Below are positions 4,213 through 47,556 of a stretch of DNA of 50,385 nucleotides, piece after piece. Below the pieces are notes generated by a model. That model was not told where the DNA came from, ran no database searches, and saw nothing but the letters and a program-made list of their open reading frames with translations. The stretch lies in the IMG/VR virus record IMGVR_UViG_3300005253_000363, positions 1 through 50,385 of that record. One strand, written 5' to 3'. Source of the stretch: a virus. Each line of letters starts with the position of its first letter. Position 1 is the first letter of the stretch. Both the position numbers and the translations under genes were made by a program.

Positions 4213-4380
4213 ATGAATGACCATGATTGGTTTGGTATTATTTGTGCCTTGCTAACGTTATTTGTTGGATTTCATTTAACAGTTAACACAAATGATATCC
4301 TTTGTAATTATCTAATTGGTCCGGTCTTTTTAGGGCTGGGGTCAACTGGACTTTATATTGAATGGGAGCAAATTAGATGA
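4213..4380 (+). CDS. Small two-span membrane protein inserted before the ATPase gene (55 aa)
   Basis: MNDHDWFGIICALLTLFVGF begins the first hydrophobic span, and LIGPVFLGLGSTGLY forms a second. ATG 4213 lies 1 base past the truncated leader stop, and its own stop overlaps the ATPase start (ATGA, 4377-4380), so all three can be translated in series. Too short for the usual gene-length filters. Function unknown. Confidence 0.6.
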   Translation: MNDHDWFGIICALLTLFVGFHLTVNTNDILCNYLIGPVFLGLGSTGLYIEWEQIR

Positions 4381-5177
4381 AGATACCACCTTTACATATT
4401 CTTATTGTTGGAGAACCCTTCGCCGGAAAAAGTACCTTCTGCCGTACCATGCCCACCCCGAATCTTGTATTCTTCTTTGATCCTGTTGGTAAAGATGAAG
4501 CCTATCTCGAATGCGGGGATGTACAGGATTTAGACAACGGCCAACCATTAAAGACCCTTCAAGGGGCTCCAATGAAAAGAGTCTGGAGCCGTGAGAAGGA
4601 GCCTAAACTGCTCTTTCAGGTGGAATACTATCATGATGGGGAATGGGTTGAAGATCCAATAAAGGGAGGGTTCAAGCCTACTCCCGTAGCCTACGAGCAA
4701 TTTTGCAAGAGACTTATCAACATAGACCAAGAGTTTGATTACTGGAATACAATCAGTCTTGACTCTTACTCCGGAGCTGAACTTTCTGCCATGCTCCGTG
4801 AAAAATTTAAGCTTAATCCAGGAACAAAATTCGATCTCCGGCATTGGGGTGGCGGGGCTAGATCGGAACTTGAGATGGCGATATTCGCAAGGTTCGGGAT
4901 GTTTCCAATGAATGTTGTAGTGATCTGCCACGAGAAAGTATACCAGAACGATAAGACCGGAGAAATTATCCGGCAGGCAGATACCTACGGAAATCTTGGT
5001 AACACATTTGGCAGAGGCTTCTCCGAAATGTATCGTATGGTTAATATCCCGAATGTAGGTCGCCAGTTACAAACCCAGAAAGACGCAATGTGGAACGCAA
5101 ATTCCAAATATGCTCCAAATCCCTGTGAGCCTAGTTATCAAGCGGTAATCGCTTCAATCACCAATCAAGGAGAATAA
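4377..5177 (+). CDS. RecA-like NTPase of the AAA_24/Sak4 type
   Basis: 266 residues. The Walker A motif GEPFAGKST lies at residues 12-20, a Walker B-like strand ending in aspartate (TISLDS) near 125-130, and a further core strand VVVICHE follows. This matches the phage P-loop proteins annotated AAA_24 or Sak4, which assist single-strand annealing recombination or replication. The next gene encodes an SSB-like protein, the usual partner, and a Cas4-like nuclease lies upstream, so the set forms a recombination module. The gene start is a recoded copy of the remnant at 4167. Confidence 0.8.
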   Translation: MKIPPLHILIVGEPFAGKSTFCRTMPTPNLVFFFDPVGKDEAYLECGDVQDLDNGQPLKTLQGAPMKRVWSREKEPKLLFQVEYYHDGEWVEDPIKGGFKPTPVAYEQFCKRLINIDQEFDYWNTISLDSYSGAELSAMLREKFKLNPGTKFDLRHWGGGARSELEMAIFARFGMFPMNVVVICHEKVYQNDKTGEIIRQADTYGNLGNTFGRGFSEMYRMVNIPNVGRQLQTQKDAMWNANSKYAPNPCEPSYQAVIASITNQGE

Positions 5178-5178
5178 A

Positions 5179-5787
5179 ATGGCAAAGATAGGTACTGTAC
5201 CAAATGTAGTAAATGATCCATCAACACAGATTGATCCGGGGGCTTATGTTTTTAATTGTGAGTCCGTAAAAGAGGGAGACTACGAAGGACAGTTGATCTA
5301 TGACGCAGTATTCCGAGCCCAGCAACCGGTCACTCATCTAGGGCAGACTCATTACGAGCGTTGGTTTATCGGGAATGAGGAAGACCCTGAAGCTCTTCTA
5401 CCGGATACTTGGACAAAGAGAGCCGGACACATGAAAAAATGCTGCGAAGCTATGGGCGTTCCTTTTCTTGGGCAGAATCCTGATATGATCGTTCAGCAGA
5501 TGGTCGGTAAGCAGGTCTGTGCAAAGGTTGTTCATAAAGCAAGCAAAGACGGGAAGTATACCAATGCCCGTGTCTCTCAGTGGGGCCAACCTGGAACCAT
5601 GACCCCGGAAGTCATTGGATCGGATAATGGGCAGCCTCCTGTCCAAGCTCCGGCAGTAGCGGCTCCAATGCCTGCTGGAACACCGGGAGTAGGGACTCCA
5701 GTAGCTCCTCAGACTGGAATGCCTGCAAGCCCAGCTGGAGGTCAATCGGCACCTGCGGGCCCTCCTCTGCCTCCTCAGTACCAGTAA
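5179..5787 (+). CDS. SSB-like OB-fold protein with proline-rich tail
   Basis: 202 residues. The first 140 fit the DUF669/SSB-like proteins that follow Sak4-type ATPases: strand-rich, with a GQ-x-Y-type element near residue 45 and VGKQVCAKVVHKASKDGKY as a closing strand pair. The last 60 residues are a Pro/Ala/Gly linker with no acidic SSB tip. It starts 1 base after the ATPase stop. It likely binds single-stranded DNA during replication and recombination; the family call is by context and pattern. Confidence 0.65.
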   Translation: MAKIGTVPNVVNDPSTQIDPGAYVFNCESVKEGDYEGQLIYDAVFRAQQPVTHLGQTHYERWFIGNEEDPEALLPDTWTKRAGHMKKCCEAMGVPFLGQNPDMIVQQMVGKQVCAKVVHKASKDGKYTNARVSQWGQPGTMTPEVIGSDNGQPPVQAPAVAAPMPAGTPGVGTPVAPQTGMPASPAGGQSAPAGPPLPPQYQ

Positions 5788-5816
5788 CGGGGAGGCCACA
5801 AGCAGGAGTTGTCTGG

Positions 5817-5924
5817 TTGACTTGTGATGTATGTAATCAGAAGGTGGATTCAATGGATTTTGATGGACATACGACCAAGCATTTGACTGATCCAAAAGAT
5901 CCTTATTTTGTGCAGTTACGATAA
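5817..5924 (+). CDS. Micro zinc-finger protein (35 aa), TTG start
   Basis: From TTG 5817, with GGAG 8 bases upstream, a 35-residue frame contains CDVC, then H and H spaced C-x2-C-x11-H-x3-H, close to a classical C2H2 finger. It ends at TAA 5922-5924, just before the structured region. The non-ATG start and tiny size make it uncertain. Confidence 0.4.
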   Translation: MTCDVCNQKVDSMDFDGHTTKHLTDPKDPYFVQLR

Positions 5925-5925
5925 A

Positions 5926-6078
5926 GCTGGGCCTAAGTGCATAAGCGTAGGTGCGTCCTAAGAGACCTTGTAAAGGGCAGACAATGACCCTACCGCCCAG
6001 TGATTAATCTAGCGGGGGAAGATTCTCGGCTGGCCCAGTCGTTAGGGATACTCAGGCCCCGCTCACCTGCTTCTGGTG
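5926..6078 (+). ncRNA. Structured, pseudoknotted RNA element (domain A)
   Basis: Complementary segments seen by eye: 5927-5933 with 6032-6038 (7 bp), 6011-6017 with 6057-6063 (7 bp), a hairpin 5932-5935/5948-5951 and a hairpin 6064-6067/6075-6078. The first two helices interlock, which would make a pseudoknot. The stretch has no convincing gene, while nearly all neighbours overlap. No known RNA family is recognised. It precedes the short gene at 6133, whose GGAGG lies outside the helices. Confidence 0.5.
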
Positions 6079-6132
6079 TTAATTACCTGGGTATCTCTGG
6101 GCAGGAATTTTAGACTTGGAGGTAGATCAATA

Positions 6133-6282
6133 ATGCTCAATCCTCAACGCCAGAAGTTTTTGGAGAAGAAACTGGAGATTGCCAGGGCGCGTGATCCGAT
6201 AATCAAATCGGAGATTGAATTAATCGAAATTGCCGAAGAGTTATCAGCGGCGTTGTGGAAGTTGCGGGAGAAGAAGAAATAG
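6133..6282 (+). CDS. Small basic helical protein between structured RNA domains (49 aa)
   Basis: A strong GGAGG sits 10 bases before ATG 6133. The product is a charged, almost entirely helical chain (MLNPQRQKFLEKKLEIARAR ... WKLREKKK) with a basic end, so binding to nucleic acid is possible. It is flanked on both sides by structured non-coding sequence; its stop (6280-6282) abuts the first strand of the domain B stem. Confidence 0.6.
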   Translation: MLNPQRQKFLEKKLEIARARDPIIKSEIELIEIAEELSAALWKLREKKK

Positions 6283-6740
6283 GACTGTGAGCGGCGTGGA
6301 AGGACACGCGGAAAGGACACATCATTGGATAACTCACTGGCTAGAGTTTGCAGGTTAGTACGCTTGGATCGATACCATAGCTGGGTGTGTCTGGAAACCT
6401 GAAGCAGACATCAATCTCTGCCTCACAGTCTGATTTAAATTTGAGTTGTGAGGGGCCTTTCTCAGGGTGCCGCTGGGGAAATCCCAACCGTACGGGCCAG
6501 CGAGAGCGAAAGCAAATCGGGAAGCCTAGGTTGACTGACGAACTGGTCACATCAGGTCGTGAGTACACAGGAGGGAAAGGATAAAACGTAGGCGTCGGAC
6601 CACGCCAACCCTCACAACTCATTCAAATATATTGCCGGGTAAAGCATCTGTTCAAGGCCGCGCAACATCCTAGGGTGCGGTTGCAGATGGGCGGTCCACT
6701 CTCATGGAGAAGGGAAGTTGCAACCCGCCACCCGGTTCGA
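6283..6740 (+). ncRNA. Large structured RNA, three closed domains (B, C, D)
   Basis: Domain B is closed by 6283-6291 with 6422-6430 (9 bp) and holds hairpins 6294-6298/6305-6309, 6331-6335/6344-6348 and 6388-6393/6405-6410. The loop of the last one (6396-6401) can pair with 6351-6356. Domain C is closed by 6442-6454 with 6609-6621 (13 bp, perfect) and holds 6471-6476/6497-6502, 6538-6545/6553-6560 and 6591-6595/6602-6606. Domain D is closed by 6634-6640 with 6730-6736 and holds 6645-6650/6684-6689 or 6679-6685/6719-6725, and 6695-6698/6705-6708. No supported gene lies here. It is not a tRNA or recognisable group I or II intron. Strand is assumed from the operon. Confidence 0.6.
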
Positions 6741-6755
6741 TTTTGGAGGAAGAAA

Positions 6756-6941
6756 ATGAAGCCGAAGCATGTATGGATTATTGAGTATGGGACTGGCAGT
6801 GAGTGGAATCCTGATAGTGACCACGACGGAGATTTTACTATTTTCTTTGTCAAGAGGGATGCCGTTGAACACATGAAAAAGAACCATACAGGACACCCAA
6901 CCAATCTCCGGGTCCGCAAATATATGAGGGAAGAAAAATGA
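6756..6941 (+). CDS. Hypothetical protein (61 aa)
   Basis: ATG 6756 is preceded by TTTTGGAGGAAG, one of the best ribosome sites in the window, just past the structured RNA. The product (MKPKHVWIIEYGTG...) is small with several acidic and histidine residues. Its stop overlaps the next start. Function unknown. Confidence 0.65.
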   Translation: MKPKHVWIIEYGTGSEWNPDSDHDGDFTIFFVKRDAVEHMKKNHTGHPTNLRVRKYMREEK

Positions 6942-10169: not shown

Positions 10170-10246
10170 TGTGGGAAATTATTGACTTTTGGGTAGGCTT
10201 AATCTTAGGAGCGGTATTTATCACAGTGAATAGGGGACGAAGATGA
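10166..10246 (+). CDS. Tiny single-span membrane protein (26 aa)
   Basis: ATG 10166 overlaps the previous stop and its own stop overlaps the polymerase start (ATGA). The product is one hydrophobic helix (IIDFWVGLILGAVFITV) with a basic end. The tight coupling suggests it is translated. Function unknown. Confidence 0.5.
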   Translation: MMWEIIDFWVGLILGAVFITVNRGRR

Positions 10247-12144
10247 TCCAATCCAATAAACAAGTCCCCGACTGGGGAGATGCTTCATCCCGTCTTATTC
10301 TTATCGGGGAAGCTCCAGGCCGTGAAGAGGAACAACGTGGTCAGCCCTTTGTAGGAGCTTCAGGGCTCAAGCTCAATGAGTGGTGGGCCAGAGCAGGACT
10401 TCATCGTGGGATGTTTTACATTACAAATGTCCTTCCATCCCGTCCGTGGAATAATGACATCTCCAAGGTTCCTCAAGAGGAGTTGGATTATTGGGCAGAG
10501 CATCTGAGGAAGAAGATTAGTGGACTCCCGGAGCCGTTTATTCTGATTCCAACCGGGAAGACTGCACTCAGAGCACTCTTAGGAAAGGATAATATCTCAG
10601 ACCTCAGAGGATCTATTCTCTCTTATGAAGACGAGGGTAGGACAATCAAAGTGATTCCTACAATTCATCCAGCGGCGACTCTCAGAGCAAAGAAGTTCGA
10701 GGCCAGATGTATCTATGACTGGATGAGGATTGCTTATGAGGGAGGGTTTCGGGAGGTCAGACTGCCGAAAAGGGACCATATTATAGCTCCTCCAATGGAT
10801 CAGTGTGAGAACTACGCATATAGGGTCTTAGAGCTCCAAAAACCTCTGGCTGTAGATATTGAGACCCACCCTCAAGAAGGAATTACCTGTGTAGGGTTTG
10901 CAACTGGACCTCAGCAGTCGTTCACCATTCCCTTCGGAGTCAAACGCTCTATCCACCTTACCGGCAACAAACCGAAAGAAGTAAAGGAACGAGAGACGAA
11001 GAAAGCCAATGACCGCATCTCCAAGGCAGTCTTTCACAAGGAGCATCCCCTCGAAAGTTACCATACAAAGAAGAGAGAGCTCAATTCAATAGAGAAATGG
11101 AAGATCCAGAAGAGACCTCTCGTAGTAATCTGCCGGATTGTAGAGGAGTATGAGAAGGAGCATAAGCTGCCCTCTCCAGATTGGGAATCAGATGGCGGGT
11201 ATTTTATTACAGTAGGCTACTGGGAAACGGAGGAACAGAATGAGAAAGCTAAAGATATTATCAGATCGCTTATTGAAGGAGAGAATCCACTCATCTTCCA
11301 CAATGGATTCTATGATACCTACTGGCTCAAGGACTGGCTCGGTTGTGATATACAGAACTGGCACTGGGACACCCTTGCTATGCACCATTGTCTTGTCCCC
11401 AATGAGGAACACTCACTTGACTTCCTCGCATCAGTCTACACCTCAGAACCATTCTGGAAGAAAGAAACCAAAGAAGCAGAGGCCAGTGGAAAGTATTACA
11501 AGAAGCAGGAAGTCCTCTGGAAATACAACGGGAAAGATGTAGCGGTTACTTTTGAGCTTTACGAGAAATTCCTGAAGATGCTCCAGGATTCTGGGCGGAT
11601 GGATTTCTACTGGAAGCATTATTATAACTTGTATGAGCCTCTGCTGGAGCTATCTTTGACTGGAATCAAGACTGACATTGAAAAGAGGAGTCAGCGGCGG
11701 GTGCAGTTTCAGGAGGAGCTTCAAGTTCTCCTCAAAGAAATCGAAGAACTGGCAGAGAAGCCTCTGCATGGAGCGAAGGCCCTTTCCAGTAAAAAGGTTC
11801 AAGAGTATCTCTATGAAGACCTGAAACTCCCCAAGCAGAAACGATACCGACCAGAAAAGAAAGAGAAAACTTCTACGGCTGATGAACTGGCAATTAGGAC
11901 TCTGATGCTCAGGTTTCCTGAGAAGTTGAATGTTGTAGGAGAGAAGATTCTTAGATGCCAGAGACTGAATAAATTACTTGGGTATCTGAAAGAAGCAAAG
12001 ATCGACCCTGATGGAAGATTGAGAAGTCAGTATAAATTCAATACGACTACGGGAAGATTGGCGAGTGGAAGTAATCCTTACGGAACTGGCGATAATGCCC
12101 AGAACGTTGACCGGGAGCTTCGAAACATTTATGTTGCTGGCTGA
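10243..12144 (+). CDS. polA: UDG-like domain fused to PolA N-terminal part (exonuclease and thumb), split polymerase fragment 1
   Basis: 633 residues. Residues 1-175 form a family 4-like uracil-DNA glycosylase domain: GEAPGREEE at 22-30 and IHPAA at 141-145. The cysteines that hold the Fe-S cluster in family 4 enzymes are absent. Residues 200-445 form the 3'-5' exonuclease: DIE at 205-207, FHNGFYD at 352-358, YNGKD at 428-432, with an insertion near 235-320. The rest is the thumb and start of the palm, with TTGRLAS near 600. The frame stops at IYVAG, exactly where PolA would run on to motif A. The catalytic half is a separate gene at 13208. A UDG-PolA fusion is known in SPO1-type phages; the break here is the odd part. 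Confidence 0.88.
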   Translation: MIQSNKQVPDWGDASSRLILIGEAPGREEEQRGQPFVGASGLKLNEWWARAGLHRGMFYITNVLPSRPWNNDISKVPQEELDYWAEHLRKKISGLPEPFILIPTGKTALRALLGKDNISDLRGSILSYEDEGRTIKVIPTIHPAATLRAKKFEARCIYDWMRIAYEGGFREVRLPKRDHIIAPPMDQCENYAYRVLELQKPLAVDIETHPQEGITCVGFATGPQQSFTIPFGVKRSIHLTGNKPKEVKERETKKANDRISKAVFHKEHPLESYHTKKRELNSIEKWKIQKRPLVVICRIVEEYEKEHKLPSPDWESDGGYFITVGYWETEEQNEKAKDIIRSLIEGENPLIFHNGFYDTYWLKDWLGCDIQNWHWDTLAMHHCLVPNEEHSLDFLASVYTSEPFWKKETKEAEASGKYYKKQEVLWKYNGKDVAVTFELYEKFLKMLQDSGRMDFYWKHYYNLYEPLLELSLTGIKTDIEKRSQRRVQFQEELQVLLKEIEELAEKPLHGAKALSSKKVQEYLYEDLKLPKQKRYRPEKKEKTSTADELAIRTLMLRFPEKLNVVGEKILRCQRLNKLLGYLKEAKIDPDGRLRSQYKFNTTTGRLASGSNPYGTGDNAQNVDRELRNIYVAG

Positions 12145-13044: not shown

Positions 13045-13211
13045 GGAATACAAATTCGCCAGTCTGGGTTGTTGAAACTGTTTATCGTAATATGCTCCAT
13101 ACGAGAGAGGACGCAAGGAAATTTCAACGTTATAGAATTAAGAATCCAGAAGCCTTTCCAAAGAAAGAGAATCAACACAGAGTTATTATAAGAAAGGCAA
13201 AAATGAAATGA
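13041..13211 (+). CDS. Basic hypothetical protein (56 aa)
   Basis: GGAGGGGAGG directly precedes ATG 13041. The product (MRNTNSPVWVVETVYRNM ... RVIIRKAKMK) is basic with beta-like stretches. Its stop overlaps the start of polymerase fragment 2 (ATGA, 13208-13211), so the second half of the polymerase appears to be translated by coupling to this gene. Confidence 0.55.
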   Translation: MRNTNSPVWVVETVYRNMLHTREDARKFQRYRIKNPEAFPKKENQHRVIIRKAKMK

Positions 13212-13987
13212 CTCCCTTCCTCATGGAACTCGACCTCTCCCAGGTAGAATCACGCATCTGTTATATGCTCACTCGTGATCCTGTCCTAGTCAAGCAGGCT
13301 CAAAGCCAGCCTTGGGAGTTTAACGGGCATACAGAAACTGCTCGGATGATTTATGGAGTAGAAGACCCTACTCCCCTCCAGTACTATCTAGGCAAGAAAA
13401 CATCTCATGGAGTCATGAGAGGAATGCAGGGAAAGAAACTGGCAGACGAATTATTAAAAGAAGGCACCGTAATGGCAGTCACTGAATGTGATTGGCTGAT
13501 TCAACGATTCTTCGAGACGAAACCAGCAATCCGGGATGTGTACTTTGTTGAAGTCCGTCAGCAGGTTTGGGATCACCGGAAACTTACGAATTCTTTTGGC
13601 CGTGTTATCGAGTGGCCTTTTGATAGATTCGGGGACGATCTCTATCGAGAAGCTTACTCGTGGCCTCTTCAATCGGATGCTGCTGACCTTATCAATCAAC
13701 AGGGATTGATTCCAATGCATCATTGGTTGAAGCAGGGTAAAATGTATACCAAGATCCTGGCTCAGGTTCATGATTCACTGCTGTTCAATACCTGTATCGA
13801 GGAAGCCTATGATGTAGCACTGGCCTTTAAAGGATGGATTGCAGAGCCTATTGAGTATCCGGCTGGGCCACTTTCGGTGCCGGTGACTTTTAAGATTGGC
13901 AAGACTTGGGCTGGGGATCATGAGTGGAAGAGACTACCGAGTAGGGAAGAATTTAACGAGAAAATAAAAGAGATTATAGGAGGTTAG
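13208..13987 (+). CDS. polA: PolA C-terminal catalytic part, split polymerase fragment 2
   Basis: 259 residues. Motif A is DLSQVESR (residues 9-16, with catalytic D9). The O-helix region is GKKTSHGVMRGMQG (62-75). NSFGRVIEWP (128-137) and the Q155/AAD segment follow, then motif C VHDS at 187-190 with its catalytic Asp and Ser in place of the usual Glu. It starts only a few residues before motif A, so nearly all catalytic residues are here while exonuclease and thumb are in the gene at 10243. Both halves must presumably assemble. The start overlaps the stop of the last cassette gene, and no in-frame upstream extension exists. Confidence 0.87.
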   Translation: MTPFLMELDLSQVESRICYMLTRDPVLVKQAQSQPWEFNGHTETARMIYGVEDPTPLQYYLGKKTSHGVMRGMQGKKLADELLKEGTVMAVTECDWLIQRFFETKPAIRDVYFVEVRQQVWDHRKLTNSFGRVIEWPFDRFGDDLYREAYSWPLQSDAADLINQQGLIPMHHWLKQGKMYTKILAQVHDSLLFNTCIEEAYDVALAFKGWIAEPIEYPAGPLSVPVTFKIGKTWAGDHEWKRLPSREEFNEKIKEIIGG

Positions 13988-46576: not shown

Positions 46577-47160
46577 AACTCATATTAACAGCTAAGTGTA
46601 GGACTCTAATGACTAAAACGCATGTTGCTCTGTTTATATAACTCATATTAACAGCTAACTATCCAATTCTAAAGGCCTAATCCTTATTGTCTCTAAGTTC
46701 ATGCGAAAAAAAGAACTCATCTTAACAGTTAACTATATGATTCTAAAGCATCTATCCTTATTGTCTATGTTCACTAAGTTCTTTCTCTGCCCTTCCCCCC
46801 AAACACCCCCCCTAAGGACTTGCTAAGAAGCTAAGCTGCTAAGCAACCCAACCAGGCGAGCGAGCAAGAGAAAACCCCGGAGAGAGAAAGCGGGAGAGAA
46901 ATACTCTAAGCCCTTGTTATATATGATGTTTTTTTATAATAATAAAATATATACCCCTATAGGGGCTTACTTTCTTAACAAGTCCTCCATAGGGGTGTAG
47001 CCAGACACGCACAGAGGAATACAATAGTGAGCATAGACAATAGTCTCAACTCCTTATGATTCAGTAGCTTGACTGTTAATATGAGTTATAGAAGACGCCT
47101 ATAACTTAGAGACAATAGTCCCAACTCTTTATTATTCAATGCTGTTTTTGTTAATAAAGT
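46577..47160. repeat. Nested inverted repeat around 46900, origin-like
   Basis: AACTCATATTAACAGCTAA occurs at 46577-46595 and 46640-46658, with a 2-mismatch copy at 46714-46732 and an inverted copy at 47073-47090. Further arms mirror each other about 46900: 46683-46697 with 47105-47119, 46757-46775 with 47026-47043, and 46802-46841 with about 46962-47001. The centre (46917-46957) is an AT-rich tract next to the palindrome CCCCTATAGGGG (46957-46968). Iterons, symmetry and an easily melted core resemble a bidirectional origin. Confidence 0.65.
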
Positions 47161-47300: not shown

Positions 47301-47369
47301 TGTAACATCTCTGTTACACTCTTTTTGGGCTGTATCAAATCTGCTACAAACTGTAACGAATCCGTTACA
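47301..47369. promoter_or_regulatory. Three 18-bp operator dyads, TGTAAC-N6-GTTACA
   Basis: TGTAACATCTCTGTTACA (47301-47318), TGTATCAAATCTGCTACA (47331-47348, imperfect) and TGTAACGAATCCGTTACA (47352-47369). Centres are 30 and 21 bp apart, near three and two helical turns, so proteins would bind the same face. This suits cooperative binding of a dimeric repressor or activator upstream of the rightward genes. The binding protein is not known. Confidence 0.65.
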
Positions 47370-47481: not shown

Positions 47482-47498
47482 TTGGCATGGTTCTTGCG
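47482..47498 (+). promoter_or_regulatory. Sigma54-like promoter 1
   Basis: TTGGCATGGTTCTTGCG has the GG-N10-GC core (GG 47484-47485, GC 47496-47497) and matches most of TTGGCAC-N5-TTGC. Transcription would start near 47509, giving a leader of about 62 bases to ATG 47571. Confidence 0.45.
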
Positions 47499-47539: not shown

Positions 47540-47556
47540 TTGGCATGGTGATTGCA
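47540..47556 (+). promoter_or_regulatory. Sigma54-like promoter 2
   Basis: TTGGCATGGTGATTGCA has GG at 47542-47543 and GC at 47554-47555, the GG-N10-GC spacing, and differs from TTGGCAC-N5-TTGCA at one fixed base. The start would be near 47567, only about 4 bases before ATG 47571, so the transcript would be almost leaderless. Confidence 0.45.

Follow-up and report, generated by a model that had tools for sequence, protein, structure and literature searches.

The closest described systems to the locus reported here are GOLLD, ROOL and OLE. GOLLD and ROOL are, to our knowledge, large structured phage RNAs without known function, and our array is like this group in being phage-borne, several hundred nucleotides long and elaborately folded with a pseudoknot; like GOLLD, it combines a conserved part with a less conserved one. 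Its module C, a three-way junction of ~100-120 nt that is closed by its ends and has a possible intermolecular contact, may resemble the pRNA of phi29. With integron attC sites, the array shares conserved complementary ends, a variable interior and small unassigned ORFs between. For OLE and GOLLD, a palindrome switch at the contact site was taken as evidence for homo-oligomer contacts (PMC12286853), and module C has a switch like it. Phages also carry mimics of type III toxin-antitoxin RNAs, such as the pseudo-ToxI of Phi-TE (PMC3475682), and our array is similar to these RNAs in having tandem folded units with A-rich sites between them where an RNase could cut.

The array lies in an early phage operon

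We analyzed positions 1 to 50,385 of a phage record in IMG/VR (IMGVR_UViG_3300005253_000363), a stretch of 50,385 nucleotides that we call the window. The array sits among early + strand operon genes of this phage. Upstream lie a Sak4-like recombinase gene (4377-5177) and the gene for a 202-aa protein (5179-5787) that matches no family and whose position suggests an ssb-like protein. Past the array, the same operon continues with genes for dCTP deaminase and DNA polymerase. The array itself is enclosed by complete ORFs (5817-5924 on the 5' side, 6756-6941 on the 3' side). A first-pass annotation had described a large, multi-domain structured RNA in gaps of an operon whose other neighbours all overlapped. 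The latter point was slightly overstated, as other gaps of about 50-100 nt exist in the window. The same locus, with its modules rearranged, occurs in G001 (IMGVR_UViG_3300005253_000273), a sister phage that shares long blocks of about 80% nt identity with the window. The window locus contains the following features.

5817 to 5924, + strand: flanking ORF of 35 codons with a TTG start, containing C-x2-C and two His; outside the RNA, as its 5' bound
5925 to 6116, + strand: module X, with a conserved 3' part (6003-6116) that ends in GGGCAGGAATTTT
6133 to 6282, + strand: 49-codon ORF separating X from A; matches no family; not in G001
6283 to 6430, + strand: module A, closing stem GACTGTGAG/CTCACAGTC; defining helix as RNA GACUGUGAG/CUCACAGUC
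6431 to 6441, + strand: A/U-rich A-B linker, TGATTTAAATT, identical in G001
6442 to 6621, + strand: module B, 13-bp closing stem TGAGTTGTGAGGG/CCCTCACAACTCA; defining helix as RNA UGAGUUGUG/CACAACUCA
6622 to 6633, + strand: A/U-rich B-C linker; 6620-6648 is 93% identical to G001 2674-2702
6634 to 6736, + strand: module C, a three-way junction with closing helix GCCGGGU/ACCCGGY

The first gap starts at 5788, and its initial 137 bases are mostly the 35-codon ORF, which has 86% nt identity with G001; of the 18 differences, 10 fall at third codon positions. Because 5817-5924 is a conserved ORF, we left the start of the RNA at 5925, where it had first been placed. This ORF stays open far upstream (window 5628-5924) in a frame other than that of the ssb-like gene, and does so in G001 as well; 27 of the 29 nt preceding its TTG are identical between the two phages. 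Either a TTG start or a programmed frameshift is possible.

Later in the window, a family A DNA polymerase is encoded in two ORFs (10243-12144 and 13208-13987), the first of which is fused to a uracil-DNA-glycosylase-like domain. The dCTP deaminase and small ORFs lie between the polymerase halves, and G001 aligns over both in the same order.

Promoter and terminator scans gave no site bounding the array beyond chance. A sigma-54 type (-24/-12) promoter, TTTGGCATGGTGATTGCAT, occurs at window 47541-47556, a short way ahead of the first gene on the + strand (47571), with a second window copy at 47483-47498; it is conserved at G001 44870. Palindromes of the form TGTAAC-N6-GTTACA at 47301 and 47352 resemble activator sites. 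G001 suggests a circularly permuted genome, in which case this promoter would drive the array operon. A further sigma-54-like site, TTGGCACAAGCATTGCA, lies at window 4118, about 260 nt upstream of Sak4, and is not in G001. An ORF-poor region of about 0.7 kb (46577-47156), in which AACTCATATTAACAGCTAA occurs three times in direct orientation and, in inverted copies, at 47068-47093, is possibly a replication origin or a set of regulator sites.

The same modules recur, reshuffled, in an unrelated phage

A pattern made of the two ends of the final stem identified a third carrier, G002 (IMGVR_UViG_3300032231_000020), whose gene set differs and includes a DnaD-like replication initiator, an SbcC-like ATPase and podophage-type virion proteins. 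Comparison of G002 with the window and with G001 by tblastx gave no match at E 1e-3, and the sole match between the whole window and G002 genomes by blastn was 23 nt within module C. When the modules were compared by short words, further stretches matched exactly: for C, the two ends and the middle, and for B, the two ends. On the minus strand of G002 (L022 about 3590-3530), an intergenic hairpin of high stability, GGGGGTGGTATCAGG...CCTGATACCGCCCC, precedes a small ORF; a 160-nt piece there gives z -6.15.

The module order is X-[ORF]-A-B-C in the window, X-A-B-[ORF]-C-A-B-[ORF]-C in G001, and C-C-B-[ORF] followed by the contig end in G002. From these orders in three phages, A-B-C acts as a repeatable unit with ORFs dropped into the linkers. 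Our sample comprises 14 module copies from three genomes, all metagenomic. The modules are 50-180 nt long and of several types with interiors unlike one another, and every copy has the sense orientation. Closing helices, linkers and the C junction core are conserved; interiors are replaced yet still fold. The A-B linker falls inside a 31-nt exact match between window and G001 (6420-6450), and the A/U-rich linker sequences of the arrays are UGAUUUAAAUU, CAUUCAAAUAUAUU, CAUCAAAUU and UUUCAAAUU. This comparison shows separate modules joined by A/U-rich linkers, not one giant fold. Scans of viral contigs with C, B and linker patterns returned only G001 and G002, the remaining matches being chance and many of them in open frames; all 43 matches in a scan of genome contigs were chance, and blastn against phages and plasmids gave no match.

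ORFs with ribosome-binding sites come immediately after several modules (6133 and 6756 in the window, 1946 and 2487 in G001, and the array end in G002), which would fit cis-acting mRNA elements serving the stability, insulation or translational control of the next small ORF. Against this, one module precedes unrelated ORFs, different modules are found in one and the same position, A-B, B-C and C-C are joined with no ORF between, and no Rfam cis-regulatory family matched above chance. ORFs inserted in the arrays match no family, and those that follow modules differ among the window, G001 and G002. There is no fixed module-gene pairing, with X, B and C each preceding different ORFs; that no module keeps to one gene argues against a gene-specific leader. 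We rejected a riboswitch or such a leader on the lack of homology between the ORFs after modules across the three phages, and consider cis-acting elements in general unlikely.

Folding and compensatory changes support structured RNA

The stems listed in the first-pass annotation were all present when checked in the sequence: 13 bp at 6442-6454/6609-6621, 9 bp at 6283-6291/6422-6430, 7 bp at 6634-6640/6730-6736 (last pair G-U), and the interlocked 7-bp stems at 5927-5933/6032-6038 and 6011-6017/6057-6063. Its reading of both gaps as structured held for the 3' gap, where 6280-6760 folds at -174.9 kcal/mol (z -3.72), a stability that none of 100 shuffles reached. Folded one module at a time, A gives z -2.0, B z -3.9 and C z -2.8. 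As a nested fold, it did not hold for the 5' gap (5788-6132, z +0.40; subregion 5925-6120, z -0.73), for which the evidence is conservation and compensatory changes, not fold stability. Module interiors by themselves are stabler than shuffles (combined z -3.9, background 0). The sense strand gives the better fold for 12 of 14 modules, a weak preference close to background, since it does so for 64% of random pieces too.

The majority of core pairs are invariant across copies. We counted about ten compensatory double changes (one in helix Pa and two in helix Pb of module X, one in A, three in B, two in C-P2 and one in C-P3), a tally that rests on hand-aligned helices, including C-P2 of G1_C1, the most divergent C copy, and B interiors. 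Copies of module A lie at 1674-1786 and 2275-2318 of G001 and show a double change from U-A to G-C. Module B has two copies in G001 and occurs in G002; its double changes are A-U/G-C in one case and G-C/C-G in two others.

Chance complementarity in a non-coding gap would suit the unexceptional stability of the first gap alone and the stable 160-nt pieces found elsewhere in coding DNA. Recurrence of conserved ends in an unrelated phage, together with compensatory changes, speaks against chance, which we regard as highly improbable; it is already refuted for A, B and C, and the case against it is weakest for the 5' part of X. Folding, recurrence in two further phages and compensatory changes back the original description of a large, multi-domain, structured element. 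The numbers are small and a Pb pair is broken, and we regard a structured RNA array as likely, not proven.

Module X contains a pseudoknot

Identity of the X 3' part (6003-6116) with G001 1566-1679 is 78%, and the X 5' part is not alignable. Two helices lie in this 3' domain.

6011-6017 with 6057-6063, + strand: X helix Pa, 7 bp, kept in G001
6044-6056 with 6086-6098, + strand: X helix Pb, 13 bp, not listed in the first-pass annotation

In G001, Pa shows an A-U to G-C double change plus a G-C to G-U change. Pb retains 12 of 13 pairs there, with two double changes (A-U to G-C and C-G to U-A) and one broken pair, and slid controls retain at most 7 of 13. Because Pb crosses Pa, the X 3' domain contains a pseudoknot. 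Conservation of the 5927/6032 stem in G001 is poor, at 5 of 7 bp.

Module C is a three-way junction with a palindromic octamer

Module C has the following parts.

6634-6640/6730-6736, + strand: C helix P1
6645-6650/6684-6689, + strand: C helix P2
6690-6694/6725-6729, + strand: C helix P3
6717 to 6724, + strand: self-complementary octamer GTTGCAAC; GTAGCTAC in G001 and GTTGCAAC in G002

The junction runs P1, AAAR, P2, P3, with no further unpaired base. P2 reads CAUC/GAUG versus CAAG/CUUG in G1_C1 (two double changes, hand-aligned), and P3 reads GGCGGGU/ACCCGCC versus GGUAGGU/ACCUGCC (one double change, read from the sequences). The pair count on the C alignment alone contains zero double changes because core pairs barely vary.

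We trained a covariance model, R1, on three C copies (window, G001 and G002), which score 108, 104 and 101 bits, respectively. A MAFFT alignment of the five C copies put G1_C1 in the wrong place and did not enter the model. The held-out second G002 copy was placed end to end at 18 bits (E 0.052); once added to the model it scores 33.7 bits, by construction. G1_C1 ranked second in 18 kb with correct ends, at a nonsignificant E of 0.67. Across 7 + 274 + 284 + 297 genomes R1 found nothing convincing, and a 28-bit match in a planctomycete MAG, which falls at a gene start, was rejected as chance.

The octamer sits in a conserved bulge on the 3' strand of C-P3. As RNA it reads GUUGCAAC in the window and in G2_C1 and GUAGCUAC in G1_C2. 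Each version is a perfect palindrome, and they differ by two substitutions at mirror positions. In the predicted folds of the window and G2_C1 copies the octamer is unpaired but for its last base. We treat a palindrome contact as a lead only, because the G1_C2 palindrome has a local hairpin as an alternative pairing and two other C copies are without the palindrome. That the array oligomerizes through module C is possible, and we hold it with considerable doubt.

The array falls outside known families

With Rfam 15, the window gave no match at the gathering threshold, nor at E up to 5, and the G001 and G002 arrays gave nothing above chance at E up to 2, with no GOLLD, ROOL or OLE match; a tRNA search of the window found none. 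The families covered by these models include ROOL, GOLLD, OLE and introns. The earlier likening to big RNAs such as ROOL and GOLLD does not extend to family membership, given the lack of an Rfam match and tandem interchangeable modules in place of one fold. Membership in GOLLD, ROOL or OLE was rejected on the absent covariance-model match and on the location, which is not near a tRNA island (typical for GOLLD and ROOL). Unlike these RNAs, the array has modules that are separable, duplicate and reorder, and ORFs in its linkers. It may work like this group although not a member.

The phi29-type pRNA was rejected on the lack of an Rfam match; the array differs from it also in lying in a replication/recombination region and in often having several tandem modules. 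A type III toxin-antitoxin RNA was rejected as well. The array-adjacent ORFs have no PADLOC family match, no toxin gene adjoins, and instead of short near-identical repeats there are modules of several types.

Phages are known to contain group II introns (PMC12350094). A pseudoknot in X, a length of about 800 nt and an ORF inside might suggest the remains of a self-splicing intron or of a different known mobile ribozyme element. No Rfam intron model matched at any of the thresholds used and the array, lying between complete ORFs, interrupts none, on which grounds we rejected group I and group II introns and regard any such remnant as very improbable. No endonuclease or reverse transcriptase is seen in the array, since the inserted ORFs match no family.

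Elements acting at the DNA level, namely single-stranded attC-like recombination or cassette hairpins or replication hairpins with the small ORFs as cargo, would account for conserved ends, variable interiors, small ORFs in linkers and modular gain and loss, and Sak4/ssb-like and replication-initiator genes are nearby. Yet the attC core sites (RYYYAAC/GTTRRRY) are missing at the ends of 14 of 14 modules on both strands, by which attC membership was rejected. A, B and C have three different end sequences, a conserved motif lies in the middle of C, orientation is fixed, and changes in conserved helices include G-U pairs and one A-C break. We consider DNA-level elements quite unlikely. Taken together, the Rfam, attC and tRNA negatives and the lack of an interrupted ORF place the array outside GOLLD, ROOL, OLE, introns, pRNA and attC.

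Proposed role of the modules

We think it probable that the locus is a horizontally shuffled tandem array of independently folding RNA modules, co-transcribed with early phage genes. The array would be read on the sense strand within the early recombination/replication operon. Its A/U-rich single-stranded linkers would be likely cut sites for host RNase, freeing single modules. Conserved ends and linkers alongside drifting interiors suggest that function is carried by module bases and linkers, and since there is also no gene pairing, a trans-acting ncRNA array is favoured. On balance, the modules would act in trans as RNA and not regulate one downstream gene. The functional surface would consist of the conserved stem bases, the C junction and the palindromic bulge. 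It could serve RNA-RNA association (homo-oligomers) and/or engage an RNA-binding factor of the host, for instance by acting as a decoy directed at a host defence or at a target of takeover; a decoy or counter-defence role for the modules is conceivable and somewhat unlikely.

The occurrence of the same modules in a phage sharing no detectable gene points to a new mobile building-block RNA. We tentatively suggest that this could be a new class of phage RNA made of exchangeable building blocks, forming palindrome-joined multimers or a multi-headed decoy of a host factor. The array family is unrelated to GOLLD and ROOL, and it shows which parts are fixed (module bases, linkers and the C core) and which are free (interiors, copy number and order), so that its function can be sought module by module. 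Exchange of modules between phages without a detectable shared gene would imply an advantage carried along by the RNA itself.
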